DNA of 64,000 nt from Echinarachnius parma (taxonomy: Eukaryota > Echinodermata > Echinoidea > Clypeasteroida > Echinarachniidae), in contig JBAMJV010007476.1 in assembly GCA_037951105.1 (NCBI GenBank), positions 62,001-126,000 on the forward strand. Direction: 5' to 3'. Shown here piece by piece: positions 11,782 through 63,936 of this stretch; the stretch's first letter is position 1; every line of letters starts with the position of its first letter. The notes under the pieces were generated by a model. The model had not been told where the DNA came from, searched no databases, and was given only the letters and a program-made list of their open reading frames with translations. A program made the position numbers and the translations under genes.

Positions 11782-11828
11782 CTGCACAAATGAAACGAGA
11801 GAAAAGGAGAAAGAGTGAATATAGATTG

Positions 11829-12213: not shown

Positions 12214-12258
12214 AAAAGAGCATAAGTTTGGAGTTAAGACACTTTTGAATGTTTCATA

Positions 12259-12358
12259 ATTCCGCCATCTTGGAGTGAGTGTCCCACGCACCCAAGAGGA
12301 GTGTACGGTTACGCGTAACTGTAATTTGTGACACGGGTAACAAATGCTTGGATTTCCA
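12259..12358 (-). pseudogene. Degraded copy of glycogenin exon 2 (copy B)
   Basis: In sense it matches the first two thirds of the 11640-11781 exon (AAGCATTTGTTACCCGTGTC). The frame meets a TAA after about 17 codons and later carries small indels. Homology stops at the point equivalent to codon SLRDVG, the same breakpoint as the copy at 12472. Confidence 0.85.
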
Positions 12359-12471
12359 CTTGTATAAAATACACACAACAAACAAGGGCAAAGACGAAAC
12401 ATGTATTGGGAAATGGGAACGTTAAAAGCAAAGGATTGTAGTTTTAATAGAAATGTTTGTTTGTTTCAAAA

Positions 12472-12561
12472 TTCTGACATCTTGGAGTGACTGTCCCACG
12501 ACGAGTGCACCATTAGTGTAACGGTCATTTGTGACACGAGTAACAAACATTTGGTCTTCCA
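12472..12561 (-). pseudogene. Copy of glycogenin exon 2 with open frame (copy A)
   Basis: In sense, an intact acceptor ATTAG|TG leads into EDQMFVTRVTNDRYTNGALV and GQSLQDV, about 75% identical to the real exon. The frame stays open into unrelated sequence. No good donor follows and the second half of the exon is missing. It is best read as a partial exon duplication. If it were spliced, it would give a truncated product. Confidence 0.82.
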
Positions 12562-12738
12562 CTAATACACTAAGTTAAAAAGGGTGATTACGAATGATAA
12601 TGAACTTTAGAAACAAAATATGGTGAATTTTATTTGGTGCCACTGTTAGCAAGCATCAACGGTTGAATCATTAGAAATTAGCAAAAATTGTATGTGATTT
12701 ACACTTTTTATTCATGTCTACAAGTGGCACTTCATAAA

Positions 12739-30836: not shown

Positions 30837-31484
30837 TTGTACAATCAACCAATTGATCAATATATTGATTAATTAATTGCGAGTACAATTGATTGATTAA
30901 TTGTACAATCAATCATGGCTCTTTATGTTATGGGACCCTGATATGAAAGCAGATTTATAGATAAAAATGTCTTGTTGAAGGACATAAAAACCAGGGCAGT
31001 GATTGGTTTAGAACTTGGACATCAAGACCTGAAGACACATGCCGTGCATTACTAGACAGAAAATAGAAATTGTTGATGGTATAGGCAGAGGCGAAAGGGA
31101 GTCGAACTGATTGGGGAGGCTTGCAAACTATTGGTGGGACACACTATGTTTGTCTTTATTTTGTAAATAATTTCCCCCTTATATTTTGTATTGCTTTGTT
31201 GAGGGAGGGCACATGCCCCTTCCCCCCCCCCCCCCCCCCCCTCCTCCCCGCCCTGTAGCTACACCAAGGAGTATTAGACTACTTATCATTCTAGTACACT
31301 TGTTGGGGTGCCAATCTTAGCTTTCCTCATTTATTGCAGGATGATGTTTGCTTTGAACAGGCAATATAAAGTAGGTTTGGGGCTTCAACTTATTAGCCTG
31401 TTCCTTTACTAGATTATGAAACCCTCTGGAGTTAATACAAGACCCACCAGGTTCCCATAGGCACTGGGTTAATAACTCACTTTA
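30837..31484. other. Non-coding: palindromes, C-run, micro-MITE
   Basis: It holds nested TTGATTAATTGTACAATCAA dyads at 30837-30915, a C homopolymer at about 31220-31242 and a micro-MITE at about 31400-31473. TTTATT at 31330-31335 gives AATAAA on the VPS8 sense strand and is a candidate poly(A) signal about 900 bases after the VPS8 stop. Confidence 0.5.
31330..31335 (-). terminator. Candidate VPS8 poly(A) signal
   Basis: The first AATAAA found by eye in the sense direction downstream of the VPS8 stop. Variant signals closer to the stop cannot be excluded. Confidence 0.3.
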
Positions 31485-32234
31485 TCCAATAAAGACGAAC
31501 CTCAGCATAAAATCATGCTGAAGATAGAGAATGAAGCTTGGTTGAATTGAGAGTCAGTTTACAAGTTAGTTGTCATCTTCACTCCATGGTGGTGCTTTTC
31601 TTGGTTGAATTGAGAGTCAGTTTACAAGTTAGTTGTCATCTTCACTCCATGGTGTTGCTTTTCGTAGCTTGAAGCTCTGTTGATGTTGAATGCTCTTTGC
31701 TTTGATCCGGCCAAACATGGATGGGTTGATGAATTCTATCAACTCCTTAATCTATCCAATAAACATACATTTAGGGATAGCGTCATAAAGCTAAAGAATG
31801 TACCTTGGTTGAGTTTAAAGAGTCAATTTACTCATTAAATCTTCATCTTTACTTGACACAGAAGCTGATCTTAGTTTGAAGCTTTCTTGATGTGAGATGC
31901 TGATCGGGTTTCACCAGGCCAGAAGAAGTAGTGTTGGTGCTTCGACCTTTTCATAACTCACTCTATCCAATAAAGTCACTCCTTGGCAGGAGAGCTTCCC
32001 AAAGTGATAGATTGTAGCTCGGTTAAGTTTTAAGAGTCAGTTTACTAGTTAGTCTTCATCTTCACTTGACATGGTGTTACTCTTAGCTTGAAGCTCTCTT
32101 AATGAAGGATGCTGTTTCCTTTGACAAGGCCAGGTGTGAATAGTTTGATGCATTGTACCAACACAGCCTCAATCTATCCAATAAACATACTCTTAGGGAT
32201 AGTGTTGTAGCTCGATTAATAGTAGATTTACAAG
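31485..32234 (-). repeat. Four degraded copies of the last VPS8 exon
   Basis: Units of about 60-215 bp lie directly after the stop codon. Each carries the end of the coding exon (sense words CATCCTTCAT and GTGAAGATGAAGACTAAC) and a shared CTATCCAATAAA-type spacer. The clearest copy (about 32048-32165) has a TAA in place of the glutamine codon after ILH. They would form part of the 3' UTR and are not coding. Confidence 0.85.
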
Positions 32235-34424
32235 TTAGTCTTCATCTTCACTCGGTGGTGGTGCTAATCTAAGTTTGAAGCGCTCTTGATGAAGGATGCT
32301 GTTCGGTTTGACCAGGCCTGATGATGTAGGGTTGGCGCGTTGTGTCATCAATACCTCACTGAGTATTGCAAGCTGGAATAGAAGAAAGTAGAATATACAA
32401 TTATTGGAATGATTTTTTGCTTGAATTTATAATCAGTAATACAAAGGGAACAAACAAACAAATACAAAATACAAAATGTGGTCTATTATGCAGAGGGTCT
32501 TTATAGATTAAAATAGATAGGAATTAAGATGAAGGTCAGTGGTTTATAATATACAAATGGACGCTACAACACATTTGACCGTACTTGTATTAGTGTGACC
32601 TATGGGTAGTTGTAATACATGTACAAATAATGTTTAGTTTACACCCGTTTGTTTAATTTAGCTTTTTTTTTATTGAATGTATGCATATTTCATACTTACA
32701 TTGTACTTCAAATATCTAAACATTGGTATAAAACAATTCCAGAAAAAATTAACCCTAGCAAATTATGAATTCCTTGACATTGAAAGACTTTTGGAAGGTT
32801 TGAACTATTCAGAAAATTGTTTGTCACCTGTTGCAATCCATCCAAAAGATTCCCATGGGCACAATGTTAGCAAAGGCAGTTGTAGAAAGTCAAAGGAACA
32901 TCCCTTAGAACTTACCCTTGAAGGTCCCTCCGTCCATTTCTTCAGGTTATCCAGTGATTCTTCCTGCTCTGGTGTCAGATCCACCTGAGAATAATTATAA
33001 TGGGAAATTACAAAATGCAAATTGCAAAAAGGATCTCTCTAAGGGCTAGTACAAAATGAGTATAAAAGTAACTTTCAAATGATAGCGGATTAAATTCTTT
33101 GTTTATTATTTATTATTTATTTATTTATTAATGGTATTTATTTTGAACACGTATGGCAGCAAACAAGCTGAATTGCACGTGCTAAACATTCAATTAAAAC
33201 AAACAATGTAATTCATATAAACGCGAACAAACAATGTAATTTATATAAACGCGAACTTATTCAAATTGTTTTTCATATTCAACCATAAGATGCATCTGGC
33301 AATAGGGGTTGAGAACCAAGGAATGTGTAATCAAATCGATGGGCACTTTTAGGATTTAAATTTGCCCCATTCACTAAAAGATAGAAAATATGAAACAACC
33401 TGTTCCCTTTGATATTCTGAAATCTCCATAGACTTTGTACACAGCCCACCCGGTTCCCGTAGTCTAAGAGGTTAAGAAAGAAGTCCAGTGTACAAAAAAC
33501 TTTTACTGCAAAGATCTTACCTCATCATCCTTTGGCTTTCCAGAGGCTCCGCCTCCAGATGCAGAAGCCCCGCCCACTCCTTTCCTTATATGGTCGTCAC
33601 CAGAGCTGAAGAGGCGTGGCCTCCTGTTTGGAGTGAGTGCAGCGCCTCGGCGGGCGGAGTAGCACTGCAGACACGTCCAGTGTTTCTGACCATCAATAGT
33701 GGCTGAACAACCGGCAGTTTGGAGACAGGTGGTGTGGTACGTGTGGCCGCAGCTGGACAGATTATGAACAAATACAATAATGAAAATGTTATCAAAATCC
33801 TGTTTAAAGTATTTTGATCATATAATGTAATTTGTATAACACTCAATGAAGAACAGTCCTTTAAAGCCCAAATGTCCATCAGATGGTCAAATCTATCCTA
33901 GGTTATTATAGTGTAAGGATAAGATTTTAACATACATTAGAAATTGTGAATTTAGTTCATGATGGTTTAATTTAGTTCATGGCTTGAGGCAATAATGTCA
34001 AATTATGTGTTTTAATCATGAATGTATTTATGTACATGGTCTCGTAATGGAACAGTTCTCAAGCAAATTATGAAGCTATGAACAATTGGACTGATATAAC
34101 TCACCCATCCAATCCAACAACTGTCTTTGCACATAATAACAATACAATGTTCACAAGTACCTTTGAATTAACCACTTGGCTATTGGAACATAATGGGTCC
34201 TGCATTAACTTTATGGGGATTGTAAAATCTAGTATGGGACAGGTCAAGTTGAATTACCTGAAGATAAGAATGCTGTCTGACTCTGTCGAGTATGCATAGT
34301 TCTTGTAACATATCATGCAGGATTCCTGGCGTGGGATGAGCCCTCTGTTGGCAGCAATGGTCAGATTCTTGACTGACCAGTACAGATCTCGGTCCAGCAG
34401 GCGATTGGCCGTCTTTAGTAACGT
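32235..34424 (-). CDS. VPS8: VPS8 exons 32-35: RING-H2 finger and C-terminus
   Basis: Exons: 34258-34424, 33521-33752, 32916-32984, 32235-32372 (stop TAA at 32235-32237). The zinc ligands are C1054 and C1057 (CMIC), C1075 and H1077 (CGH), H1080 and C1083 (HTTC), C1101 and C1104 (CLQC), a complete RING-H2 set split by one intron. The 33521 exon then adds a low-complexity arginine- and glycine-rich linker (ALTPNRRPRLF, GGASASGGGASG) that is weakly conserved in the family. The final exon encodes LAILSEVLMTQR and the acidic end APPPSEDED, which parallels the human tail. Confidence 0.96.
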
Positions 34425-37400
34425 CTGAATTGATAGAGAGGAGAGGGGGGAAAAGGATTCAACAAATCACTAGCCCTAAACAAGTTTGGGGACTCAAGAT
34501 TTAGAGATCTTGGTCCAGCTGGCGATTGACCGTCTTAAGTAACATCAGAGTTGATAAATTGATCAAGAAGAGAGGGGGTAAAGGATTTAATAATAAAATC
34601 TTAAGACAGTTAGTGATGGATTTTAGCCTGTGGCATATTGTAATCAACCCATGGATAAGCGTATAATATGTGTCCGATTTTCCATTAGAAAGGCCTCATC
34701 ACAAGCTTTCATTTGATGATTTGTTCTAGCAAAATGGTCAATAATTGGCGAAGATATGATTGTTTCAATTTTACAATCATAAGTCTTATACACACAGTAT
34801 GTGAACTTAAAATGCCCATTTCTTCAAAACATGAATTACCGACAAGTGCAGGGTTTTGCTATAGCCGGTCACATAATGTGATGATGACCATTTGCTAGCC
34901 CACTTTTTTTCTCTTTACAAAGAAGTCTATCTGTAATGATATAAAGAATAATAGATTTGTGCAGTGCGGCAATTGATTTTTTGCCATTTGGAGAAAGCAC
35001 ATATTCATCAAGATGTTATGTGTATTGTTACCTCAGCCAAAGAAGTTGGAGGAGGTTATGTTTTTGGTCCCGTTTGTTTGTTTGTTTGTTTGTTTGTTCG
35101 TCACCTGTCTCCTGCACATAATTTCACAGATATCTCAACCAATTTTTCATAGAAGCTTTGTGTTCATCTAGAATAGAACCCATTGAATTTTCAAGGTCAA
35201 AAGTCAAAGGGCAAGGTCAAGGTCACGCAAACATCAAAATTTGAGTGTTGGCGGAGGTATGCACTCCCTGAGTGCACTACGTCTAGTTTTTTATCTAGAA
35301 TTATATCCATTCACTAAATTATCATCATAAATTGAACAGATTACAGCACAAAATATCCTGAAGCACTCAAGCAAGTAAAGGACAAAAGAATATGTCTTAC
35401 CGATTCATATGTGTATGTATCCAACATGCCCACAATGAGCTCTCTGATCTCACCAAACCTTCCTGTGCTGTAGGTGGGATCCTGTCATATGAAAAGTAAA
35501 TACAAACACATAATATGAAGGAAAATGGCCAGAAATGAATTGAATAAATGAAAATGCAAGGGACATTTATTGAGAAGTAGGGGACTTGCAAACATTAAAT
35601 CAAGATTTACTACAATGTGTCTGGTGAGAAGTAGTAGTAGTCGTAAATAAAAATTGAGCAAAGAAAATTGTGCTGTAGGTGGGATCCTGTCATATGAAAA
35701 GAAAGTACAAACATAGAGGAAACTGACCCAAAACAAATACAAAAATTAAAATGAGCAAAGATAATTGGGCTTGGCCGGGAATCAAACCCGAGACCTCTGG
35801 AATGCTAGACCAGTGTTTTAATCATTGAGATACAAGGCCCTTCTGATGGCTGCACTTCCCATAAACCCTTTTCTACAATGTATATTAACCAGATACAAAC
35901 CCAAACAACAAGATCTTTTTTAAAGGGATGAGAGAAAATTATTGAGATTTCATAATAGCACCCAGATGGAAATTTCAAGCAAGGCATCGTGGTCAAGGCA
36001 TAACATTCCTATTTGCCCTTTAATTTAACTGCCTACTTATACTTGTAGCTATAAACATAATATTAAAATCAACAATAATAATACATTCAATTCATATAGC
36101 ACCTAATATGAAACAGCGTCATCTCCAAGCACTGTACACTATTATTACATCTTGTTTTTACCTGCATGATCTTCTGAAGGATTCTGGGTAATGAGAGATG
36201 TCCCATCATGCTGTTCAACACGTGCCTCGTCTGCTCCTTGAAACCTGTGAGCAGGACATCAACAAATTATCCCATGATCAATCATATCTATTTGTCTTTC
36301 CCACTTCTTCCCATTCTTCTTCTTCTTCTTTCTTCTAAGGGGGAGCCAAACACTGGCATTTCATTATTTGTATTATGCACTTATCAGCAACAGTAGGCAA
36401 AAAGTCCAGTGTTTTTTTTGTTTTTTTAAGTCTGCCTCCTTCATTTTTGAAGATCCTAGCAAACTATAGTCATGTACAATGTATCATTCATACAATGAAT
36501 CATTTCAAAATTTGGATCACAATACAAATGTTTACCACTAAATTTCCTGACCATTAACCATCAGGTTTGATAGGAGACACAAACTGCCAAATGACATATT
36601 TAAATTGCATGCATTCTATTATCCAACTAAGGCGACTGTGGTCTCTTTAAGCAGGTTCATTCACATAATGATAATAATATAATAATAATGGTTATTTGAT
36701 TATAGTGCTATTCATGTGAGAATCATAGCGCTTTACACTATGCCTCCTAAACTGCCTCCTATGGAATACGACAAATTGGTCTTTAGGTCTTTGCCAGAGC
36801 AAGTGTAACAGAAGATTGAAAATTAATGTTTGAATTCAGAAGTATTCATTCTTGCATTAATGATTGTTTTCCTTGCTTACTTTCTGTGCATCAGTGGAGG
36901 AGTAAGTTATAGTACATGTAGGTTAACTGCAGTATAAATATCTGCAATAATGTTTGTTTTCCTTTCTTACTTTCAAACTGTGATATGGTATTAGTAAGTT
37001 ATAGCAGATTTCACAGTAGTAATATATAGCGTTATTTATCCTTTCTTACTTTCAAACCGTGCTTTGGTGGAGGAGTAAGTTATAGCAGGTTTAAACTGTA
37101 GTATTAATTCTTGCAATAATGTTAGTTTTACTTGCTTACATTCAAACTGTGATTTCACAAAAAATAATATATAAAGTTGGTTTTGCCTTGCTTACTTTCA
37201 AACTGTGCTTCGGTGAAGGTGGGTTTGAGTCGACGTTGCGTTGTCATCATCAGGTCCAGAAGTGGAAACCATAAAGCCTTCAAATGAAAAGGGTTGGGAC
37301 AAAATGTATTGATAAAAATTGAAACAAAACTAATATACACATACATGTACAATATAACCACAAATACAAAGCACAGAGACATACACTATGTTTCACAAAG

Positions 37401-40400
37401 ATCCTCAGTTGTACTTAAAAATTATTGTAAGCCATTTGTAGCCTCGGAATAAGACATATTCAAAGGCAAAAATGCAAGTATGTTAGACTTTCATAAATTT
37501 TACATCAAGGACATGAACTCTCCTTGATGATAGAAAATGTTAATGATTTGAATCAACATTTTATGCCTTTTAAAAGGACTTTACAAACAAAATTAAAAGA
37601 AACTAATTCCTTTCCATAATTTCTTAAACCAACTTAAAGTAAAGTTCAACTTAGGATCTTTGTTGAACACCCCCTGATGTACAAATAACACTGTATAACA
37701 TCCACAGAGATATACACAAGCATCCCAAATTATGTTCATTGTAACCTTTACTTTTAAATTAATTTGAATAAGCTCAACAGTTAATCATTATACAGAAATT
37801 CATGAAACTTATTTCCTTAAAAAAATGTTTGTTCTAATTTTTGTTTTCAAATGTACATAATTTGTGCCAATAAGTCTTACCTCCCTTCCCTCCTCATCAA
37901 GCTTGGTAGAGTTTCTCTGACATAGCTGCACCAACACCATCAACACAGCTTGCACACTGGACAGCGCTAGGCTCACATCTGTACCTACAATAATAATAAT
38001 GATAATTACAATAAATAGTTTTGTTTAAATAGAGTTGCCTCTCTTCTGCACCAAAACCATCAACCATACCTGACATCAAAGACATAACTCATAAAACTGT
38101 TCAAATTTATTGTAAATGTTAAATTATTATAACTGCTATGTAACCAACCAATCTGCATTGAGCATTATAGCTGTTGCCGTGGTGGTTACAATACATGGAC
38201 ATTGGAAAAGTTTCATGAAACAAGACCACGTACCTGTAATCAATCCTCTAAAACCATTCAAAAAGCTTGGTAATAGAAAGCAAAAGACTCACACGTGAAC
38301 TTTATTCACCCATTGTCTACGGAAACATGGTGGGCCCTGCAATAACTTCATGGGGATTGCCAAATCTAGCAGGGAACAGGTTAACACATTGCCTATGAGA
38401 ACCTGGTGAACCCTGTATTAACTCTATGGGGATTACAAGATCTAGTAGGGAACAGGTTAAGAGTAATCATTAATCAACTAGGACCATCCAAGAAGCACTG
38501 ACCTTCATTCTCTTCTTGACCCTTTGAGACCTCAAGGAGACCTTTGACCTTTGCCTGGAGATTCTCCATCAGGATCCCGAAGGCTCCCTGGATGTCTCCA
38601 GACTTCTCCAGGAGGAAGGCAATGGCTTCAGACATCTTGTGCTTCCTCACAATCTGGACAAAAGAGAACATGAATAAAATTAACCCATTTCACAAGGGAA
38701 CCTAGTGGGCCCTGTATTAACTCTAGATGTATTGGCAATGTAGTGTGGAACAGTTTAAAACTTGTAAAAGAGAGGCAACACCACAAAATATTTGTTTGAT
38801 TAGTTATAGAAAGACCAACTTTCCACAGTGACACAACATATCGTTGGTTGAGAAACGGGATAACCTTTTTCTATGCGTACATTGTACATGAACAATGACA
38901 CAATACACGTATGCTGCACTGCTTTTCGTGTAAAGCACGCAATGTATACATCCACGCTGTAAATAGAAAAATATATCTACATGTACATGGTTAAATGAGA
39001 AACAGTCAGAAGTTCATTACCAAGGTCAAACAATTGTACACAAACCATGAAGTTGGAGTACAAACGTAATCTCTCATCTGCCACGGAGTGGCTATATATG
39101 AAGAGCTTAATTCCCAAAGGCACTAAATCCACTTTTCAACTTTGGAGAAAAACAGGTTTCTTTGTCCAACTTTGTACAGATGTCTATGGGAATATGAAAA
39201 TGGAACATTCCATATTTTCATTTTGATCGTGTAATTTGTCCTAAAATGTGGATTTCTAGATGGCCACGTAGCTTATAGCACTGGTACCATTATGGCTCAG
39301 TTTTGATGGAAAGTGGATTTAGCCCTTTTTGGAACTTAGCTCTTCATATGGGCATCTCATGTACTTACATGCAGTGCCTCTTCAAGCCGATAGTTCTCCG
39401 ACAGCATGACAAAGTTGAGCACCTTCCTCGGAGCAAACTGACACATGAGGTCAAGGAACTTCTCTGTGACGTGGCAGTCTGGTTGTGCCTCTTCACGCCC
39501 ATAGAGGGCGCTACCAGTGTCTCGGCCGTCAAACACCCCCTGTAGGAACTCGTACTGCAACTGGGGCTGGGTCTAGGTTGGGGGGACATAATAATAATAG
39601 TAGCAAGCATTTATAAATGCTACTATACAGCTTGTCCCAGAAAAAATTACAACAGCACTTTCCGCAACGATAACTTTAAAGATATTAAATCAATCAGAAT
39701 GATATTTCAGGATATGAAACTATAACTTATTACCTACATCTTGCAGAAAACCCTATTCGATTTGCTTCAGTGGTCATGGAGAATGAGGATCTTTTGTCAA
39801 TCATGTCATGTGTCCATTTTCCTTCATAACGCGTGAACAAGTCCATTTTCGTTCATAACGCGTGAACATAACGAAAATGGACACATGACATGATTGACAA
39901 AAGATCCTCATTCTCCATGACCACTGAAGCAAATCGAATAGGATTTTCTGCAAGATGTAGGTAATAAGTTATAGTTTCATACCCTGAAATATCATTCTGA
40001 TTGATCCACTATCTTTAAAGTTATCGTTGCAGAAAGTCCTGTTGTCAATGGACAACACGTCTCCTTACAAAATCTGGAGGGAAGGGACATCTGACGTGAT
40101 TGACAAAAGATCCTAATTCTCCATGACCACTGAAGCAAATCGAATAGGGTTTTCTGCAAGACGTAGGTAATAAGGTATAGTTTCATACCCTGAAATATCA
40201 TTCTGATTTATCTACTATCTTTAAAGTTATCGTTGCGGAAAGTGCCATTGTAATTTTTTCTGGGACAAGCTGTATACAAACTAATATGAGGCGCAAAACA
40301 ACAAAAAGAAAATTAAAGAGACAGAAAAGAGACACAAGTTTACATTTATCATTTAAGACAGGGAAGAACTGAAAAACAACTGGATTTACTTGTTATGATG

Positions 40401-52012: not shown

Positions 52013-52068
<56 letters not shown>

Positions 52069-55000: not shown

Positions 55001-58000
55001 AACTGTTACAGGTTTGATGGTAGTTCTAAATAATAAGCCAAGCTTACCTAGTCTGTAACTGTTACAGGTTTGATGGTAGTTCCAAATAATAAGCCAAGCT
55101 TACCTTGTCTGTAACTGCTACAGGTTTGATTGTAGTTCTAAATAATAAGCCAAGCTTACCTTGTCTGTAACTGTTACAGGTTTGATGGTAGTTCTAAATA
55201 ATAAGCCAAGCTTACCTTGTCTGTAACTGTTACAGGTTCAATGGTAGTTCTAAATAATAAGCCAAGCTTACCTTGTCTGCAACTGTTACAGGTTTGATGG
55301 CAGTTCTAAATAATAAGCCAAGCTTACCTTGTCTGCAACTGTTACAGGTTTAATGGTAGTTCTAAATAATAAGCCAAGCTTACCTTGTCTGCAACTGTTA
55401 CAGGTTTGATGGCAGTTCTAAATAATAAGCCAAGCTTACCTTGTCTGCAACTGTTACAGGTTTGACTGTAGTTCCAAATAACAGCTAAGCTTACCTAGTC
55501 TGTAACTGTTACAGGTTTGATGGTAGTTCTAAATAATAAGCCAAGCTTACCTAGTCTGTAACTGCTACAGGTTTGATTGTAGTTCTAAATAATAAGCCAA
55601 GCTTACCTTGTCTGTAACTGTTACAGGTTTGATGGTAGTTCTAAATAATAAGCCAAGCTTACCTTGTCTGCAACCGTTGCTTGTCTCTGTGCCTTATTTG
55701 TGACCAGTCCTGAAATAAGATATAGACAGATATTGCATACAATTAACCTGTTCCCTTTGAGATTCTGAAATCCCCATAGACTTTGTACATAGCCTCCTCG
55801 GTTCCAGTAGGCAAGGGGTTAATAACTACATTTGTAATCCTTGACCTATTCCCTGCTAGATGTCACAGCCCCCATAGAATTAACACAGTGTCCACCAGTC
55901 AGCTGTAGGCAATGGGTTACACAGCCCCCATAGAATTAACACAGGGTCCACCAGTCTGCTGTATGCAATGGGTTACAAATTTGAACATGCATACTGAAGC
56001 AATTGCTACATTCTTCTAATAATTATAATTAAAGTGAACAATATTGTATTTTGTAGCCAGGATAAACCTAGATATTACCTTTAGCCACTGGATACAACTC
56101 TTGTCATTCTTGATTGTGCATAACTAAAAAAGTATTGCATGAAATCTATACACATTGAAACCTTGCAACATGCCCTATAACTGTAGCATGACTGCCTTGG
56201 CTTTGCCTTGGCTTTGCCTTGGCTTGGCTTTGCCTTGGCTTTGTAGTATGTGCTGGTGGGGGTTAACCCATTCCCTTAGAGATTCTGAAATCCCCATGTA
56301 CTCTGTACATAGCCTACCCGGTTCACGCAGGCAAGAGGTTAAGTACATACATTTATGTTTCTGGCTATAGAGCAGCAATGCAGATTCAATGTCTTGCTGA
56401 AGAACATATATGCAGGGGCATCAATTAATTTTGAACTCAACCCCACAACATCAAACGTACCTATGACTGCTTTGGCTTTGAAATCCCCATATAATGTACT
56501 TTGTACATAGCCTAATAATAATTAATAATAATTTACACTTATATAGCGCATTTCCAGTTTATAACTGTTCAATGCACTGTACAACTCCAATCTACAACAA
56601 AAATAAATATGTTTTAAAATTTCTCTTAAATATATCTACTGTGGGGGACTACCCGGTTCATGCAGGCAAGATGTTTATACACATACCTATGACTGCTTTG
56701 GCTTTGCCATTGTAGTATGTGATGGCAAGGTGTTAACCGATTCTCTTAGAGATTCTGAAATCCCCATATACTTTGTACATAGCCTACCAGGTTCATGCAG
56801 GCAAGAAGTTTATACACATACCTAGGACTGCCTTGGCTTTGCTATTGTAGTACGTGCTGGCAAGTTTAAGGCAGTCCTTGAATTTCCCTTCCTTTAACAG
56901 AACCTCAAGTCTCTGCAAAACAAAATAGAAAATGTTAATTAGTTTAAATAAGCCAAATGGTTAACCTGTTCACTTCGAGATTCTAAAATGCCCATAGACT
57001 TTGTACATAGCCGGCCAACCGGTTCCTGTAAACAAGAGGTTAAAGGGATCTAGTAACTTTGTTAACATGTGCAAAAAGTGATGAATCGTTGATGGTTGGT
57101 CGTCTGCAACCATTCATTTTATCAATGATTTGTAATATCCCATTAATTACATGTATTTAAATTGCTCTACATGTATATTGTTATTTTTGCAACTTGAAAA
57201 TATTCTTAATCTGAAGTTTATTCATATTCTCAGTTTCTTGTAATATTTGTAACTTTCACAATGTTCTATTTTAAAGTTATACTTATTCTAAGATTATTGC
57301 AATAAACACAGTTCTAAATCTGCTTTAAAATGTGAATTGGATACCATACCTGTTCCCATGTCCTTATGGTCATCACATGGATTGACTGGAGAGAGAAAAG
57401 AGAAACAGGAAATAAAGTCAAGTTTACCAAAAAACAAGAATCAGTTAATCTGTTCTTGAGAAAACACGATCATGAGATGGGATGTACGTATACAACCGTC
57501 CAGATGTAACGTACGCACGGACGTACTACCCCAAAACATAATGCATCCAGCCACTTCGTTGCAGAGGCATACAAACAGTTTACAAATATTTGATGTGTAC
57601 ACAATACAGACACAAAGAAATCAACATGCATTTGCATGTCATAGAACCTCAGGTCATTTATTTTCCATAACAAGTGTTAATCTATCTATTTATTTATGTC
57701 AAAATCTTTATACAAATTAGCCTCTTCAGTAAAACTGACTTTAGAGTTAGACCGGTTGACTTTTTAAAGCAAAAAAAACTGCTGTTTGTGGGAGTGTTGT
57801 ATACCAGATTCCCTTTTGTGAAGAGACCCTACCAGGTTCCAACAGATAATGGGGTAACGATCCAAAATATGAATTCAATATAATCACCTTATTATAGACT
57901 TTCTCTAGCAAAAATATGGATGCTTAAATTTAAGTTTTGAGGGACATTAACAATAGCACTATGAGAAAAAATACATTGATTATTTCTAGAGTAAGAATTT

Positions 58001-61000
58001 ATATTTATTTCTTATGTACAATTTCATGATGGCATGTACATGTACATGCACAATTACACACAATAAATGAATGTTATGTTTTGGATGATGCACTTTAAGT
58101 ACACAGTTTAAAAATGCACACAAAACAGATTCTAAATTTTTAAAAAGCAATGTTTGAAATGAGTCAAAGTCATAAAAGTGAAAATCTCACTACCTTGGTC
58201 CCCAGTATGATGAGTTGTCCTTTGTTAGTGGCAATAGACTGGTAGCATGCCCTCTCTCCGGCCAGTGCCTGTTGGCATAACAATAAACAAACAAACTTAC
58301 ATACTAAGAATCAACATCAAAGTAAAAGTCTTTCCTTTACCTAAAGAAAATAAATTGGACAGATGATAGGGACTTTATGATTTGCACCATCACTATTGGA
58401 CTAGTATGTGCATGGTATCACGATTAGGCTCTGTTTCCATGTTCGACCACTGTTTTGGATTGTGTCCTAAGACTCGTTGTAGTCAAAGGGCAGATAAGCA
58501 TATGATATTGCGATGATGTACCTTTTTAACCCAAACAAAATCCAGCGAAAGAAACAATAAATACATGTATACACTCTGATTTACACAAACAAACAAAGAA
58601 ACATGCTATCGGCTCACCAGTGCTTTACTGACATTCCCTCCAGTGGCCAGACTCTTGAAGTGACTGCTGCCGTACACGAGCTCCACATCACCAAGGTCGA
58701 TGACCTCCAACTCCTCCTCCGACTTGACGTCGATGAGGTGGAGCTTCTCGCTGGTATCCACGGCAACCAGTGTCTTGGCATTCATCCACTGAAATTGGAA
58801 ATACAATAGAAAATTGGCTAAGTTACCAAAGCTTATCCCTAACGCCAAACTCCCCAGAGAGTAGAGATGGTGCTCACAATGTGTGTGGGCTGATATTTTA
58901 TCCCATGACAGGGTAATAATAGTGTAAAGCATTTAGAGATGATATTGTATCATATTAAGTGCTTTATTAATTCAATAATGTCTATTATAATTATTATTAA
59001 CATTAACACATAATTCAGTCCCTAATTTAAATCCAGAGCCTATTAATTTGATTTGTAAGACCAAATGGGTGTAGATCAAGGGGCAAGTTACAGTCAAAAC
59101 ATACAACAAATAGTCAACCTGTTTGAAATGTTGAGCCCCTCTACTTCCTTACAAAAAGTAGGTTCAGTAGGTTTTTTTAGAACGTCAAGCTCAAGAAAGA
59201 ATACCAGCAGTCCTTTCCACGACTACCCAGAAAGTTTATCAACAGCTCTTCTCAGGACTAACATGGCACAACCGCAAGCCTTCCAAGAATGTATATTTTG
59301 AGATCCAGAAAAGGAGACTTAACCCATTCAGGATTGAATGATTTTGGTATAACATGTACATGTATTCTCCATAGAATTTAGCCCAAGTATTTTCGAGACC
59401 AGTCCTGAACGGGTTAAAAAAGAAATATTCCTACCTGTACACTGAGTAAACCGTAGGATAACCTGATGCTCTGGAGAGGGGCAAACTTGACCTTGTTCCC
59501 GTCCTCTTGGTACAGAACCTGAAACAAACAAATTGAGAAATCAACTTTTCATTCAATACATGATATGTTTCATAGTGAAATGTGGGTGAAGTTTTGGGGC
59601 ACGTCAAAAAGTATTTAACACTCTAGTGCCAGGAATTGCCAAGCTCTATGGCATTTGTGTGCATTGTGCTGTGCATTTAAGGAGATATGACTCAACATGT
59701 TGGGATCCCTAGTCAAAAAATTGTTGCCCCAGCATTCATTTCCTTCAGCAAGACATGGCAACACTTAATATTACTAGTACTACACTAGCAGATCTGACTA
59801 ATGCAAGCTATCTTTTGATTAACACATGCTCAGAGGTTTCCATTAAGCATTAAGCAACAAAGATACTGTGAAATTTTACTTATAAATCATACATTCACTG
59901 CATTTATTTATTACATTTATTGTTAACTATTTGAGCGCTTCGTTCGACTTTAGTCACAAACAGCGGCCCGCTTTGTTCAACTTTAGTCACAGACAATGAT
60001 GTGTGCGGCGCGCGTGCATGGCTAAAGTAATCTGGTGACGGGGGGATCTACTGCACAGCGCACAAAGTGTTAATAACAAATGATTTCCAAAGTATAAAAC
60101 CTAAATTGTCAAATATTAATTATTCTAATATCTTATATAAACATGCAGCTAGGCCATATTCAGAAGCGCATTATCATTCATAGTCATCAGGTACAGCTCA
60201 AAGCAACACAATTATCTTGTGCACTCTCTCAACTACCTGGGGAGCAAACTAGCCCAAGCTGCTCAGATTTCAAGGAGGAATCAGACAGAAATATTGATCT
60301 TCAATCCAGAACAGGAGTGAATACCTGGTAGAAGTAGACTGTGTTGGTTCTTGCACAGGCAAGTACAGGGTCGACGACCTTTGCCCTATCTGTGACCTGA
60401 ATGATGACAAACTGCCAAGCCAACAGGGGTAATGTAGCTGGGTCACCCTGAAATAATATAAACACAAATTTTAAAATTAACTAGAATTAATTGTGAATAT
60501 TTAAGCAGACTAGATGATGCACAAAATGATATGGGGGACAAACAAGACAGATCTTCAATAATAACTAGAATTAGTCACAAATATTTGAGTAGACGTAGGA
60601 GATATCACATTCAATATCTCTTTATCTACAAATGTATACCGTAGAACACCATCGTCAAGCACCCCCAAGCACCTATATGCATCTTGCTTTTAAAGAGCGC
60701 CCGCTCTCTGTCCAAACGGGAAACTTTAATCAAGAATGCAAATAATGGTGAGGAATATTCATGAGGATAATAATGGAGGTGAATCTCATGGAAACGTCTT
60801 TAAAAGCAAGATGCGTATAAGTGCTTGGGGGGTGCTTGACGATGGTGTTCTACGGTATTCCCCTCTATCTGTGACCTGAATAATGATGAACAGCCAAGCC
60901 AAGAGGGGTAAAGTAGCTGGATCACCCTGAAAAAAATGTCAATAAATACAAAATAACATCTCACATTACAAGAGTACTGTGTCATAAGTGTTTAAATAAT

Positions 61001-61520
61001 TAGTTACTGTGGCAGTGTTGACTATCTTTGCTCTAAATGTAGCCGGAATTATGACAAACTGTCAAGCCTGTAAGGGTTATGTGGCTGAAATAAAATGGGG
61101 AACAAAAAAATAAAAGATGCATTTTCTCACATAGCTAATATTGATAGCAGATATTTCATTCTATATTTATATATCAATACATGTATATCTGTGACCTGAA
61201 TTACATAAATCAAGGATATTATTATTATCATTATACACCAAGATCAAATTGACTTTGAAGGATTCGAGAAGAAATTTATTATATAGGCATAAGGAAAGGA
61301 AACTCACCCTGAGCTGTTTGGTGAACATGACCGTCAGTCTTGGCCGCAGACCTACAATGAATACCTGAGAACAAAACAATAATCAGGGCTGATTTAACAC
61401 TGCAGTTAGGGATATCTCTATATACATGATGACAAGTTTCAAGTTGTCAAAACTAAGCACAGACAAATTATTTAGCAAACTTCATCATTATACATCATAC
61501 ACCAGTATACACTGTCATCG

Positions 61521-61560
<40 letters not shown>

Positions 61561-63936
61561 CCATCAACATCATCATCATCATCATCATCATCACCATCAA
61601 CATCATCATCATCATCATCACCATCATCATCACCATCGTCATCATCATCACTTACCTTTGAGAGCGTTGCCATGGCAAGTAGTGAGAAGTCTTTGAGTGG
61701 GTGGCTGGTGATGGTGGTATCCATACGGAGTGGAGCAAGGGTGCAAACCTCTCCACGACTGATAAAAAACAGCAATAAGAATTTTAAAAATTAAATATTC
61801 TAAACATTGATATTCTGAATTTACAAACAAATATTTTAGACTTTTAACTGGTTTTCCGTGTTTGTACATTGTATTTGAAAGACTTGGAATTATTGCCTGA
61901 CTGGGGTTCAGCTATTCCAATAATTATCAGAAATAGTTGAAGTTACTAGTGCAACCAGACCAACACGAGAAGTGACTAACATGTTTCTTCCAAAATATTA
62001 TAATTTTTAGAGAATATATACATCATTTATGCAAAAGGATTATAAAAGGAGACTTGCAAACATCATACACACCTTCCTGAGAATAAGCATCTTGATTCGC
62101 ACGTCCGCATTCCCATCACTCTCCTACAACAGAATGACAAAGAAACATTGGTGAAAAGCAATTTCATCTGTCATTAAACTCTCTGAATAAAGAATGACAA
62201 ATAAACATGAATTGTTGAAAAGGGATTTCATCTTTCATTAATACATGACTTTCATGACTCTGCTACAACAGAACGACAAAGAAACACTGGTGAAAAAGGA
62301 TTCCATCTTTTAAATTTTGGATCACATTAACCTGTTTGAGACTATTTGCTTTGAGCATAACCTGGGGGTGTTTCACTTTATTTCAATTTGTAGAGCTCCT
62401 AATATAATTGATGATTATTACGTAATTTAAAATGGCATTATTACCAAAGTCTACCTTATCCTGGCCAAATTTGCACACAAAGTGCATTTTCTACTCCCTT
62501 AGGAGGAATGAGCTCTGGTCACGCAAAACCATCTCAATTATTTCCAGCTGGATGTCCTGACATCATTAAAACTTAGAATGGAATAGTATCAGAAAGATCC
62601 AGCACATGATGTGCAATTTCTACTATGTTGGGAACAATGCAACTATTGGAGCTATTTGAGATAGTTTTCCTGAAGTCTTTTCATGTGTAAATGCTAGCGA
62701 GACATAAAGATCTGGCCCCATACAAATAGTTCCATGCTAAGTCTATTTCAAATGATATGGTTTTGCGAGCAACAAACATTGTTCCTAGTCCCAAACTAGG
62801 ATAAGCTGTTTTAGCCTCAGGTACTCAATAAGTTAACCCTAGTTGGCAACTAAAATATCATGTGTCTAAAACCTAGCCACATCATCCAATATAGACTTAG
62901 CATCAAACTAAGCTAGCAAGGCCCATATTCATGAAAGCCTGCTAGCTTAGTTCCTTGCAAAGTCTATTTTGGATGGCATGGCTATGAATTAAACACAATA
63001 TATTTTAGTTGCTAACTAGGGTTAACCTAGTGGGTACCTAAAGCTCACCCAGCTGACCCTAGTTGGGGACTAGGAAAACTGTTTGCTGCTCAATAAACTG
63101 CACATTTAAAATACATTTAGCGATGAACTAAGCTAGCGGGGTTTCATGAATATGGGGCCAGACTTTTATGAATATGGGCCCTGGCAGACTTACTTCATGC
63201 TAAGCTCAAAGACAGAGCCCCCAGAGTCACTGCAGATAGCAAGGGTGGGATCATCTGTGAACTAGATAGGGAAATTAAAGACAATGAAATAATAAGGGTT
63301 TTAGGTTAGTGATACACAAAGAATTGATCATCTAATTAATGTTAACGATGTTTATTCAAGATTGGTAGGGTGTGGTCGTTTGTGAACTAGATAGTTTAAT
63401 CAAAGACAATGAAATAATAAGAGTTTTATGTTAGCAATATAATGAAAATATTGTTGGTCTTATTCAATGTCCAAGACTTTATAATGAATAATTATAATAT
63501 TATGAACTTTTCTATATACTCTTCTGTGCTTACAAAGAGTTCCTTTTGAATGAACGAAAAACAGAAGCTAAAACAAACAAAAACAAAGGCCTTTTAACAC
63601 ACAAAATTATGAAAAGGCCTGTATAAACAAATATATTTGTAACATAGCTAAGATAGCTAAGATACAATAACCAATTCAAATTTCCTCAAATACAATGGTA
63701 GGCTGTTTCACACAATTTGACTAGAGTGGACCATGGCACTCAAAGGATAAAAGGTGAGAGCAGATTTGAGTATGAGTGCACCTAACCGGTTGGAATACTC
63801 TCCTGGGAGGGGAGAATGTGCATATATAAAGTGTGGGTAACCATCTTACCTGAATGTGAAGCACAGCTGAACCTGGTGGGTGTGCATCGGTAATGGTTCT
63901 AAGCAGTTTGCCTGATGTTAGGTCCCACATTGTCAT
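32235..63936 (-). CDS. VPS8: VPS8, CORVET subunit (35 exons, 5' end outside window)
   Basis: VPS8 is the Rab5-binding subunit of CORVET, which tethers early endosomes before fusion. The 35 exons identified here all have GT/AG borders and compatible phases. They sum to 3660 nt, one open frame of 1219 residues plus stop. The protein aligns by memory with human VPS8 (about 1430 residues) from late in the beta-propeller to the C-terminus, so roughly the first 250 residues lie beyond 64000. In the window's numbering the propeller end and linker fill 1-273, the alpha-solenoid with its clathrin-type repeat 274-1018, and the RING-H2 finger 1054-1104, followed by an acidic tail ending PPPSEDED. At least ten exons have partial duplicates in their introns. 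One intron has a MITE that starts at donor position +8. Confidence 0.95.
33401..33473. mobile_element. TTAACC micro-MITE copy
   Basis: It starts ACCTGTTCCCTTTGATATTC and ends CCCGTAGTCTAAGAGGTTAA. It lies about 48 bp outside the donor of the RING exon. Confidence 0.72.
34168..34250. mobile_element. TTAACC micro-MITE beside a donor
   Basis: It reads AACCACTTGGCTATTGGAAC, then GCATTAACTTTATGGGGATT, and ends ATGGGACAGGTCAAG. Its right end is about 6-14 bp from the donor of the 34258-34424 exon. Confidence 0.6.
34497..34580 (-). pseudogene. Partial copy of VPS8 exon 32, acceptor side
   Basis: It matches 34385-34460 (GATCTTGGTCCAGCTGGCGATTG against GATCTCGGTCCAGCAGGCGATTG) together with the intron words GAGAGGGGG(T)AAAGGATTTAA. 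The zinc-ligand half of the exon is absent. Confidence 0.8.
35401..42733 (-). CDS. VPS8: VPS8 exons 21-31: clathrin-repeat region
   Basis: Exons: 42641-42733, 42127-42266, 41817-41901, 41429-41527, 40830-40919, 39369-39572, 38503-38653, 37881-37984, 37196-37277, 36162-36244, 35401-35481. Diagnostic pieces are QVGCLFTFLARQMAKHENTI, ALLELLQAGDLLQVDYQRLL, EVLYERQREFDKILLCYLRD, FLDLMCQFAPRKVLNFV, AIAFLLEKSGDIQGAFGILM and ALWFPLLDLMM. The YERQREFDKI and LEKSGDIQGAF segments are the helical hairpins typical of a clathrin heavy-chain repeat. Exon 26 (204 bp, 68 residues) is the largest of this block. Confidence 0.95.
35655..35715 (-). pseudogene. Partial copy of VPS8 exon 31, acceptor side
   Basis: TGTGCTGTAGGTGGGATCCT and GTCATATGAAAAG repeat the exon start at 35463-35500 with its acceptor. 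Only about 20 exonic bases are included. Confidence 0.78.
35755..35860 (-). mobile_element. tRNA-derived SINE head
   Basis: On the minus strand, GGGCCTTGTATCTCAATGAT, then CTGGTCTAGCATTCCAGAGG, then GGGTTTGATTCCCGGCCAAG form a tRNA-like head with poor acceptor pairing. It is followed by a body containing TTTGCTCATTTT. A relative with an AGC-type loop is at 51738-51815. Confidence 0.65.
36870..37190 (-). repeat. Four decoy copies of the VPS8 exon 29 donor region
   Basis: The real donor GAAA|GTAAGCAAGG at 37195 is followed in sense by four diverged repeats of about 80 bp. Each contains an ACTTTGAA-like exon end plus GTAAG(A/C)AAGG, and shared words TAACTTACTCC and CTATAACTTACT. They lie at about 36873, 36960, 37044 and 37131. 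Confidence 0.8.
38302..38460. mobile_element. Two TTAACC micro-MITEs in tandem
   Basis: Units 38302-38381 and 38382-38459 both read ..CATTG(C/T)CTA.G..AAC then TGGGGATT then TAG(C/T)AGGGAACAGGTTAA. A third copy lies at 38682-38757. Confidence 0.78.
39626..40274. mobile_element. 649-bp TA-flanked foldback element
   Basis: The ends are TACAGCTTGTCCCAGAAAAA and its inverse, with TA on both sides (39624-39625 and 40275-40276), which suggests a Tc1/mariner-type MITE. Inside, 39660-39830 is repeated inverted at about 39870-40035 and again at about 40090-40260, with CATAACGCGTGAACA at the axis. It lies in the intron upstream of the 39369-39572 exon. Confidence 0.85.
40670..40712. repeat. (CAATT)n microsatellite
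   Basis: Eight to nine uninterrupted CAATT units, partly continued as CAGTTTATTCAATT. Confidence 0.95.
41205..41428 (-). repeat. Copies of the VPS8 exon 24 donor region
   Basis: Units of about 60-80 bp downstream in sense repeat CTTTAAAACAGACTGTTT, ATTTTGTCTACCTGTA and GATGCAATCATA. They match the real exon end and intron start at 41400-41445. At least three diverged copies are visible. Confidence 0.75.
41642..41722 (-). pseudogene. Partial copy of VPS8 exon 24, acceptor side
   Basis: CCATCATTACCTGGTGGATA and GCAAACACTGATGCCTGGAG repeat the acceptor and first 60-70 bases of the 41429-41527 exon with a few changes. The frame is still readable (ASVFAYIHQVMMEGYYTEG), but no donor follows. Confidence 0.83.
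43020..43762. mobile_element. Long MITE with terminal hairpin, copy 2
   Basis: It parallels 20410-21155: AACGGCTCTGGTAAATTCAG at the start, GTTTGATATTGGGAAGTTTT inside, and a hairpin with arms TATGTTAGCTGTGCGCATGC and the inverse. TTATAAAACGGCTC at the left end pairs with GAGCCTGTTTTATAA at about 43575-43590, which suggests that the terminal hairpin is an addition to a smaller TIR element. Confidence 0.8.
43863..44205. repeat. (ATC)n-rich microsatellite near a VPS8 donor
   Basis: Imperfect ATC and ACC triplets; the frames across it are artefacts. It starts about 40 bp downstream in sense of the donor of the 44246-44315 exon. Confidence 0.93.
44246..50091 (-). CDS. VPS8: VPS8 exons 16-20: alpha-solenoid
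   Basis: Exons: 49950-50091, 49299-49341, 48137-48209, 45572-45732, 44246-44315. Diagnostic pieces are CWAYGLYDAIIYVYNKGMSD, LGNKLLVYI, CCLAGRAYPIGDIPPHLVDQ, LLAFDTREFLNVISLAFEE and RQRIVDILLQVMVES. Exon 18 was chosen among five near-copies because 48137-48209 is the only one with a good donor (AAGG|GTAAGA) in phase. Exon 16 was chosen as the only complete copy with donor TCAG|GTAAAT. Confidence 0.92.
44805..45564. mobile_element. 760-bp MITE ending at a VPS8 splice donor
   Basis: The terminal inverted repeats TTAACCCTAACCAGGCCGGG lead into G-run and C-run blocks around GTGGATTCCACC on both sides. The last TTAA (45561-45564) begins at intron position +8 of the donor of the 45572-45732 exon. 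The interior is AT-rich and then CG-rich (CGCGCGTTGCGG) and has no transposase. The two frames inside (45039-45236, 45258-45623) look random. Confidence 0.87.
45733..47718. other. VPS8 intron, repeats only
   Basis: It holds GCCCGATCGGGCC-type repeat pieces (45990-46230 and 47115-47230) and a GGCGTAGC-related stretch (47505-47610). No coding sequence is recognised. Confidence 0.6.
47719..48114. mobile_element. Family A MITE ending close to a VPS8 donor
   Basis: The ends are TTAAAGGGACTTAGTAACAT and AGTTACTAGATCCCTTTAA. The element ends 22 bp short of the donor of the 48137-48209 exon. Confidence 0.9.
48280..48970 (-). repeat. Tandem copies of VPS8 exon 18
   Basis: Near-complete copies lie at about 48285-48352, 48522-48592, 48657-48726 and 48799-48868, with partial ones near 48415-48455 and 48925-48962. 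All keep the acceptor AG|TTGTTGCC and the coding words GGTATGCCCTGCCAGCAAGG and GATGAGGTGGGATGTCACC. All but the real exon have GGGGTCATAG where the donor should be. Units are about 135-150 bp. Confidence 0.9.
49500..49930 (-). repeat. Downstream partial copies of VPS8 exon 16 with TTAG/CAGT repeats
   Basis: TTGAAGCAGTTCTTCAAGTG recurs at 49548 and, changed, at 49751, with GATAGTTGACTGCTTGCATT at 49716. These are the 3' part and donor of the 49950-50091 exon. Tetranucleotide runs (CAGT at 49507-49546, GTTA/CTTA at 49600-49690 and 49800-49930) separate them. Confidence 0.82.
50200..50800 (-). repeat. Upstream tandem copies of VPS8 exon 16
   Basis: Three copies, at about 50215-50323, 50447-50555 and 50660-50790. 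They carry the acceptor and CWAYGLYDAIIYVYNKGMS-coding half, then a deletion that shifts the frame. The first and second repeat units are 232 bp and almost identical, including 160 bp of intron. The third is more diverged and carries a LINE-tail insertion. Confidence 0.9.
50935..51145 (+). pseudogene. Fragment of a non-LTR reverse transcriptase
   Basis: Plus-strand frame with KPNLDPETLQNYRPISNLRF, SKLIERSVSTQLQDYL and YRPFHSTKTVLLRV. This is the N-terminal part of the reverse-transcriptase domain in CR1/Jockey/L2-type retrotransposons. It is truncated at both ends, before the catalytic YADD region, so it is inactive. It lies in a VPS8 intron, opposite to the gene. Confidence 0.88.
51377..57385 (-). 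CDS. VPS8: VPS8 exons 10-15: start of alpha-solenoid
   Basis: Exons: 57350-57385 (only 36 bp), 56822-56912, 55663-55709, 54129-54218, 53567-53613, 51377-51599. Diagnostic pieces are IHVMTIRTWEQ, VLLKEGKFKDCLKLA, QATVADK, ILEILYEYVEVSMKQGP, VVPVCVENCLMLGRK, and AKGVYLECLEPYILNDRL with VHMDIASLDIHQ. This is the helical region that contacts the other CORVET subunits. Exons 11 and 12 have tandem donor-side copies downstream of them. Confidence 0.94.
51738..51815 (-). mobile_element. tRNA-derived SINE head (AGC loop)
   Basis: On the minus strand, GAGCTTTGTAGCTCAGTTGG, then TAGAGCACTGGTTTAGCAAT, then GGTCTCGGCTTCAAATCCCT. Box A and the loop are good and box B is altered. Its downstream body resembles that of the 35755 copy. 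Confidence 0.7.
51994..52246. mobile_element. GGCGTAGC-ended element with a 55-base G run
   Basis: Same core as 28427-28625 (AAACATAAGGGGACATTTTT and ATCAGTCCGACCATGCTACG). The homopolymer at 52013-52067 is 55 uninterrupted G and is probably length-variable or an assembly approximation. Confidence 0.78.
52797..53279. mobile_element. Family B MITE, left end missing
   Basis: It starts inside the family at AAGGTAATGAAAAACTGAGT and ends CCAAAACTGAACTACCCCTTAA. An unrelated GCTGCGTTTCCATTAGAGCG-type half-element directly precedes it (52491-52690). Confidence 0.82.
54762..55662 (-). repeat. Array of 16 extra copies of the VPS8 exon 12 donor
   Basis: The 55-56 bp unit contains, in sense, GACAAG|GTAAGCTTGGCTTA, then AACTACCATCAAACC, then TGTAACAG. 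AAGCTTACC starts at 54762, 54817, 54872, 54928 and then every 55-56 bp up to 55655, which is the functional donor. Every unit keeps GTAAGC. Variation is limited to CAAG or CTAG before the donor, AACAGCT or AATAAGCC spacers, and single C/T changes. The array lies wholly downstream of exon 12. Confidence 0.95.
56155..56817 (-). repeat. Copies of the VPS8 exon 11 donor region plus micro-MITE
   Basis: GACTGCTTTGGCTTTG-type exon ends with ATACCTA or GTACCTA donors recur near 56695 and 56462, and as a slipped array of TTGGCTTTGCC near 56200-56245. Each copy is followed by a TTAACC micro-MITE, so the duplicated unit included that element. Confidence 0.8.
58194..63936 (-). CDS. VPS8: VPS8 exons 1-9 (of those seen): end of beta-propeller
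   Basis: Exons: 63850-63936, 63194-63261, 62073-62123, 61656-61758, 61308-61364, 60325-60447, 59435-59518, 58618-58788, 58194-58268 (273 residues). Diagnostic pieces are MTMWDLTSGKLLRTITDAHP, TDDPTLAICSDSGGSVFEL, RVMGMRTCESRCLFSG, FSLLAMATLSK, LPLLAWQFV, VDTSEKLHLID and SSHFKSLATGGNVSKAL. WD-type strands end here. The exon at 61656 is followed directly by a (GAT)n tract. Confidence 0.95.
60850..61205 (-). pseudogene. Three partial copies of VPS8 exon 6
   Basis: The copy at about 60870-60929 keeps the acceptor and reads GDPATLPLLAWLFIIIQVTD before diverging into a palindromic CGTAGAACACCATCGTCAAG stretch. A more decayed copy lies at 61030-61092, and a 14-base trace (ATCTGTGACCTGAATT) at 61187-61202. 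All are upstream of the real exon 60325-60447. Confidence 0.85.
61517..61650. repeat. (ATC)n microsatellite abutting a VPS8 donor
   Basis: About 130 bp of ATC with CACC interruptions. It starts 6 bp inside the intron after the 61656-61758 exon (sense GTAAGTGATGATGATGACGA). Confidence 0.95.
62833..63145. repeat. Foldback element with AACTAAGCTAGC arms
   Basis: Arms at about 62833-62925 and 62938-63025 are inverse (TTAACCCTAGTTGGCAACTA outside, AACTAAGCTAGCAAGGC inside) around CCATATTCATGAAA. Related half-sites CCCATATTCATGAAA / TTTCATGAATATGGGGCCAG recur to 63180, so the whole element may span 62705-63183. Confidence 0.75.
63350..63445. repeat. Duplicate of VPS8 exon 2 acceptor region
   Basis: TTTGTGAACTAGATAG, CAAAGACAATGAAATAATAA and GAGTTTTATGTTAG repeat 63240-63310. 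The copy covers the acceptor and a few exon bases. Confidence 0.78.

Follow-up and report, generated by a model that had tools for sequence, protein, structure and literature searches.

Why do partial copies of exons, splice sites included, lie beside so many exons of one gene, and does the process that makes them single out exons or act on the surrounding sequence as well? We examined this question in the window, the whole stretch of 64,000 nucleotides analyzed here (C7465:62001-126000 of a 1.20 Gb assembly). It contains a VPS8 gene on the minus strand (Pfam matches to the Vps8 beta-propeller, TPR and RING), whose 5' end runs past the window, and beside it a glycogenin gene.

We modeled 34 VPS8 exons in the window (e1 to e34) using a splice-site dynamic program, with missing exons completed by hand. 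The exons form a single open frame of 1202 amino acids with a terminal stop only, on contig C7465 (haplotype A) and on contig C8399 (haplotype B), and AG and GT flank every internal exon. In the final model e25 starts at 39572; the copy counts come from an earlier model in which e25 was 3 bases shorter. A TCA/GAT repeat (61515-61650) begins a few bases past the end of e3 and is open in the e3 frame, and in B the gene finder took it as exon sequence.

Judged by their similarity, C7465 and C8399 are probably the two haplotypes of one diverged pair. We compared them using a gap-friendly pairwise alignment, which replaced a mafft alignment. The aligned stretch covers approximately window positions 21151-69068, with 93.9% overall identity over 25,232 columns and ~96-97% identity in cleanly aligned introns (e.g., e12-e13, e20-e21 and e29-e30). 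Outside it, the contig parts compared share just scattered short matches. The two VPS8 proteins differ at 11 amino acids and both haplotypes keep the full frame. Intron lengths differ much between A and B. There were 147 indels of at least 20 bp, of which 28 were copies of their own flank and 119 had no recognizable likeness to it. Intron growth from local copies had been suggested in a first-pass annotation of this DNA, and these differences bear it out.

Several smaller observations concern the two contigs and their relatives. Haplotype similarity ends at window position ~21151, and in a comparison of window 1-21150 with C8399:62868-100000 no glycogenin match appeared in that part of C8399. 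Frames there resemble, by eye, a gag-pol retroelement and WD40/NTPase exons. A search of the assembly with e32 and its flanks found C7465 (100%) and C8399 (97%); C2625 and C6633 gave a partial match of 88%. The latter contigs carry a decayed second VPS8 3' end (L003, C2625:23093-26487; L004, C6633:54517-57825; 97% identical to each other), with pieces of e32 and e33, an e34-like reading frame and the repeat adjoining e34. The presence of this repeat suggests that part of it predates the VPS8 gene copy. Finally, a dispersed element of ~80 bp occurs in several introns and flanks (A sequence 3165-3249, 10979-11064 and 83275-83355; B sequence positions 42930, 50499, 71173, 72702 and 73323).

We confirmed that the partial exon copies with splice sites beside VPS8 exons are real. 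Each exon alone was searched by blastn against every intron and both flanks of the gene. For 10 of the 34 exons in A and 14 of the 34 in B, the exon's own flanks contained a direct copy at a threshold of 30 bits or more. Pairs of an exon and a non-adjacent intron gave no match at this threshold (0/1122 in A and 0/1122 in B) and one match in each haplotype (1/1122) at 28 bits or more. Inverted copies were absent from the introns and flanks adjacent to VPS8 exons in both A and B. The number of exons overlapped by local direct-repeat families is 12 in A and 17 in B, or 18 different exons of the 34; the weakest overlaps are those of e20 (12 exon bases) and e12 (7 exon bases). The first-pass annotation had named eleven VPS8 exons with adjoining copies (2, 6, 11, 12, 16, 18, 24, 29, 31, 32 and 35, given without coordinates). 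Matched by order, these are e2, e5, e10, e11, e15, e17, e23, e28, e30, e31 and e34, and 11/11 overlap a local direct-repeat family in A, e20 being additional. In A, the copies of e2, e11, e20 and e28 were identified from repeat families and are not among the rows listed at 32 bits or more. The features, including three intron-only examples, are as follows (window coordinates):

63194..63434, minus strand: VPS8 e2 (63261-63194) and an upstream partial copy, 63359-63434 matching 63234-63309 (repeat family, 83%, 28 bp of exon).
60325..61087, minus strand: VPS8 e5 (60447-60325) and upstream partial copies at 60865-60935 and 61013-61087 (89% and 76%).
56649..56912, minus strand: VPS8 e10 (56912-56822) and a downstream donor-side copy at 56649-56729 (blastn copy and family).
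54736..55709, minus strand: VPS8 e11 (55709-55663), followed by a 56-bp minisatellite whose unit includes the donor and the final 16 bases of the exon.
49543..50896, minus strand: VPS8 e15 (50091-49950) and an upstream acceptor-side array at 50219-50896 (blastn copy and family).
Within 49543..50896, minus strand: downstream donor-side copies of e15 at 49714-49788 and 49548-49584 (blastn copy and family).
48135..49015, minus strand: VPS8 e17 (48209-48137) and four upstream whole-exon copies at 48278-48350, 48512-48584, 48652-48724 and 48792-48864.
42641..43013, minus strand: VPS8 e20 (42733-42641) and a weak upstream copy at 42955-43013 (family, 77%, 12 exon bases).
41204..41724, minus strand: VPS8 e23 (41527-41429) and an upstream copy at 41630-41724 (blastn copy and family).
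Within 41204..41724, minus strand: downstream donor-side repeats of e23 at 41204-41436 (the family includes 8 exon bases).
36841..37277, minus strand: VPS8 e28 (37277-37196) and downstream repeats of its 3' end at 36841-37155 (family, 24 exon bases).
35401..35713, minus strand: VPS8 e30 (35481-35401) and an upstream copy at 35669-35713 (96%, 18 exon bases).
34258..34593, minus strand: VPS8 e31 (34424-34258) and an upstream copy at 34502-34593 (three copies in B).
31469..32372, minus strand: VPS8 terminal exon e34 (32372-32235) and a downstream array of degenerate copies (blastn copy and family).
31537-31663, minus strand: a 63-bp doublet, 98% identical, in the array downstream of e34 (repeat comparison).
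11640..12563, minus strand: glycogenin exon 2 (11781-11640) and upstream partial copies at 12563-12472 (84%) and 12360-12260 (75%) (sequence comparison).
38304..38761, no strand assigned: intron-only local repeats, an exon-free example (repeat family).
39876..40251, no strand assigned: intron-only local duplication of 206 bp with 92% identity (repeat family).
62114..62310, no strand assigned: intron-only 60-bp local repeats (repeat family).

We found that the copies have a strict direction. Haplotype A has 20 copy rows scoring 32 bits or more, and B has 27. Among them, all copies of a 3' end only lie downstream of their exon (5/5 in A and 10/10 in B, or 15/15, of which three in A and two in B contain the stop-codon end of the last exon). 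All copies of a 5' end only lie upstream (6/6 in A and 8/8 in B, or 14/14). Both exon ends were reached in 4/20 rows in A and 3/27 in B, all upstream, and were not in the other 40 of the 47. Internal pieces account for five rows in A and six in B. The arrangement described in the first-pass annotation, with donor-side copies downstream and acceptor-side copies upstream, thus holds for every one-ended copy. Its report that glycogenin exon 2 is affected was also correct, and the two upstream partial copies of that exon lie outside the interval (31485 to 63445) for which the pattern had been described.

Our preferred reading, to which we give a probability of roughly 0.78, is that the genome undergoes frequent short local direct duplication with breakpoints that mostly ignore exons. 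Where one edge of an exon falls within a duplicated unit, just the arrangement that leaves one uninterrupted exon would survive selection. Survival of the uninterrupted exon would place copies of 3' edges downstream and copies of 5' edges upstream, and the copy would turn into intron. Such units may later grow into arrays, degenerate, or be lost through exon-copy recombination. The median duplication period in VPS8 is ~125-205 bp, often with unlike sequence between copies. Candidate molecular causes are replication slippage, unequal exchange, template switching or staggered-break repair; unrelated sequence between the copies at e14 and e21 in B argues against plain head-to-tail duplication.

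If units are removed by recombination, the exon would be joined to the splice site of another member of the array, and the two haplotypes would then splice the same exon at non-orthologous sites. We compared the flanks of 66 VPS8 exon boundaries between A and B. Flanks matched both ways at 44 boundaries, 8 matched better elsewhere in the intron of the other haplotype, and 14 were unclear. At the e14 donor, the A flank matched the flank of the B copy with 82 bits vs 10 bits for B's own flank. The corresponding scores were 85 vs 17 bits at the e21 donor and 74 vs 18 bits at the e31 acceptor. The e10 donor showed a weaker shift in the reverse sense (B flank vs the flank of the A copy, 105 bits; vs A's own flank, 61 bits), and e8 showed a weak shift (36 vs 19 bits). 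At e6 and e18 the flanks had moved and no adjoining exon copy was found, and the e11 boundary falls inside the array. These comparisons suggest that the haplotypes splice the same exon at non-orthologous predicted sites, clearly at e14, e21 and e31 and less clearly at e10 and e8.

The B copies diverge from their exons by 9% (e14), 15-16% (e21) and 9-20% (e31), vs 3-4% between haplotypes in clean introns. Since the copies at these three exons are more diverged than the haplotypes, they would be older than the haplotype split. A probably lost units through exon-copy recombination, leaving the exon attached to a splice site that came from a different copy; for e14 and e21 the alternative is a duplication with captured filler in B. 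One might extend this to the lineage as a whole: exon edges would be re-copied and re-chosen continually, exon-copy recombination would swap the functional splice site, homologous chromosomes would splice at paralogous predicted sites, and intron ends would turn over by relay rather than by point mutation. To this extension we give somewhat less than even odds.

The filler at e14 and e21 could instead point to repair of staggered breaks, in which fill-in of the overhang and capture of unrelated sequence would produce the order copy, filler, copy. Such repair has been proposed for new introns in Daphnia, where, in the part of PMC4202315 on which we draw, direct repeats of 4-12 bp common to intron and exon are attributed to staggered double-strand-break repair. 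The resemblance is that, near exon ends, direct repeats lie on either side of unrelated sequence: in B, e14 is followed by 78 bp of unrelated sequence, a partial copy and the original intron start, and e21 shows this type of order twice. Spaced pairs also predominate, among exon pairs (9/11 in A and 11/16 in B) and intron pairs (11/16 in A and 12/18 in B), or 43/61 over both haplotypes. However, the other 18/61 pairs are contiguous. The exon parts repeated in VPS8, at 16-130 bp, are far longer than the Daphnia repeats and lie inside existing introns, and no case of intron presence versus absence was seen. The divergence of the e14, e21 and e31 copies, greater than that between haplotypes, fits equally well with old arrays partly deleted in A. 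On balance we regard staggered-break repair as a rather unlikely general explanation.

We found similar copies in other genes. The genome sample beyond the locus consisted of two families, loci with a myosin head and loci with Adaptin_N, and was not random. In the myosin loci, a partial direct copy lay within 1.5 kb of 15 of the 24 family-matched segments, and inverted copies in that range were absent (0/24). With allelic and redundant loci merged, 11/18 distinct exon segments had a copy. Using the exon ends of the gene finder, which called an exon in 21 of the 24 loci, 12/21 had a copy (L028 and L030 drop out). Six of these were 5'-end copies upstream, including one allelic pair (L033 and L034), one was a 3'-end copy downstream, and five were internal; the one-ended copies thus keep to the direction seen in VPS8. 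In three Adaptin_N loci, 8 of 26 predicted exons had a direct copy and none of the 26 had an inverted copy; these exons are predictions of the splice-site program, only the L044 translation was checked against Pfam, and one match (L046) falls in an acidic low-complexity exon. An allele (L045) has six predicted exons, two with copies. The first-pass annotation had seen a property of the locus or of the genome, and the myosin and Adaptin_N loci favor the genome-wide reading. In one contig, two identical 162-bp myosin exon segments (L040 and L041; C2768:33946-34107 and 123119-123280) lie 89 kb apart. Further myosin matches recur there at similar spacing, as in a tandem gene copy or an assembly duplication.

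The duplications have only a weak special link to exons. We compared exons with length-matched intron segments in which exons and dispersed repeats were masked; the draws overlap, so the control counts given here are not independent trials. In VPS8 the rates were similar: 11/34 exons vs 182/600 intron segments in A and 14/34 vs 206/600 in B. Myosin exons exceeded their controls (11/18 vs 128/540), and Adaptin_N exons showed no excess (8/26 vs 102/300). Pooled over VPS8 A, myosin and Adaptin_N, copies were found for 30/78 exons vs 412/1440 intron segments; the 78 exons do not include L045 or the six myosin loci that were allelic or redundant, and VPS8 B is reported apart. Before dispersed repeats were masked, local copies were found for 172/600 (A) and 242/600 (B) VPS8 intron segments, 203/720 in the myosin loci (192/720 with exons masked) and 83/200 in the Adaptin_N loci. 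Rotating whole repeat families gave p values of 0.11 (A) and 0.064 (B) for the exon link, under a null that also rotates long arrays. Placing single units gave a modest excess: 11/27 pairs overlapped exons in A vs 6.2 expected (p 0.02) and 16/34 in B vs 9.4 expected (p 0.004), the two haplotypes not being independent.

The single-unit and myosin excesses indicate that some exon bias is possible. They would be expected if duplications tended to start at exon edges or splice sites, for instance as a result of breaks linked to transcription, and in B the similarity at e14, e21 and e25 stops 2-8 bases beyond the exon. Against such targeting stand the similar exon and intron rates in VPS8 and the Adaptin_N loci. 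In addition, pairs that contain exon sequence would be expected to decay more slowly, given that one of the two copies is conserved, and slower decay could itself yield a modest exon excess. We consider exon targeting improbable. The exon link of the first-pass annotation is weakly supported, by the single-unit and myosin excesses and not by the VPS8 and Adaptin_N rates.

Many copies retain splice-site dinucleotides. Among a selection of the copy rows, AG was kept in 13/16 acceptor-side copies and GT in 10/10 donor-side copies outside e17, one of them scoring near zero. The e11 minisatellite has ~17 units in A, and donors scoring above 5 number 17 in A and 29 in B, counts that include the first, the predicted working donor. 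Whole-exon copies upstream of the predicted working e17 number four in A and two in B. The e17 acceptor lies 18 bases upstream of the first call of the gene finder, which adds 18 coding bases, and this longer form of the exon is also the one found in the copies. In B, e8 has a nearly whole-exon copy.

Tandemly duplicated exons that serve as mutually exclusive exons are a known class. The kept splice sites, the e17 copies in both haplotypes and the e8 copy in B resemble it. However, a complete copy with both splice sites and a compatible frame, as that class calls for, is not among the VPS8 copies whose splice sites were scored, those of e17 included. The e17 copies keep their acceptors, but all six copy donors are broken or weak, and e17 is 73 bp, not divisible by 3, so that adding one copy shifts the frame. 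The other copies are partial, few rows reach both exon ends, and copy number is not equal between haplotypes. It is therefore very improbable that the copies serve as alternative or mutually exclusive exons. Assembly error, from noisy reads or collapsed haplotypes, is scarcely credible: tandem arrays are hard to assemble and array lengths are unequal between the contigs, but both contigs contain copies of e5, e10, e15, e17, e23, e30, e31 and e34, with 0-25% divergence from the exon, all exons are in frame, and e32 with its flanks is nearly whole on C7465 and C8399 only.

The exon-edge duplications resemble a pattern described in lancelets. Lancelet "mirages" are tandem repeats across exon-intron boundaries that differ in length between haplotypes and have been proposed as a source of new introns; we draw on part of PMC3087553 and on part of a further description in PMC3902484. 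As in those accounts, either boundary can be spanned in VPS8, units measure from tens of bp to ~160 bp, the haplotypes have unequal copy numbers, and AG and GT are kept in many copies. Tandem units cross the boundary at e11, e15, e17, e31 and others. Both boundary types are affected in both haplotypes (14 copies of a 5' end only and 15 of a 3' end only, five of the 15 being the stop-codon end). The haplotypes differ in length at e11 and e17, and the copies at e14, e21 and e25 occur in B only. Mirages leave regular mRNA splicing undisturbed; for VPS8, the corresponding observation is the intact open frame of both haplotypes. In contrast, mirages were described in cephalochordates and the VPS8 repeats appear to belong to an echinoderm. 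Many VPS8 copies are also spaced or single rather than in arrays, intron-only duplications are about as common, and repeat families in one haplotype or both reach 18 of the 34 exons of this single gene, some by 7-12 bases.

In the Rogers model, as cited in the part of PMC3087553 considered here, introns are gained by tandem duplication of segments containing AG/GT. The VPS8 duplications are likewise local, carry splice sites and make introns grow, but they sit in existing introns, and our comparison showed no new intron position. No echinoderm case of exon-boundary repeats was found among the matches listed in a search of titles and the starts of abstracts in the open-access literature, outside which many journals lie.

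By analogy, the VPS8 repeats appear to work like mirages in another phylum, within a wider habit of local duplication, and the exchange of splice sites between haplotypes would be the newest element. This suggests that exon-edge duplication reaches beyond lancelets. If it is general, the introns of the animal studied would grow partly out of the adjoining exons. The series of decoy splice sites, with up to 28 extra donors in a row, offers natural material on how the spliceosome chooses a site. The two haplotypes suggest that the surroundings of a working splice site can be swapped for those of a copy with the protein almost unchanged, a testable route for the turnover of intron ends.

We also noted mitochondrial sequence in the same assembly. 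COX1 on contig C14600 has an open frame only when TGA encodes Trp, and its single in-gene AAA falls opposite an Asn of the best-scoring solved chain. The gene is preceded by LSU rRNA and followed by tRNA-Arg and then by two frames, which we take to be NAD4L and COX2. A lancelet origin, initially considered because of the mirages, was set aside on these mitochondrial features; the GFP family PF01353 had 0 matches, a result that says little either way. The mitochondrial code and gene order are presumably of the echinoderm, echinoid or holothuroid kind.
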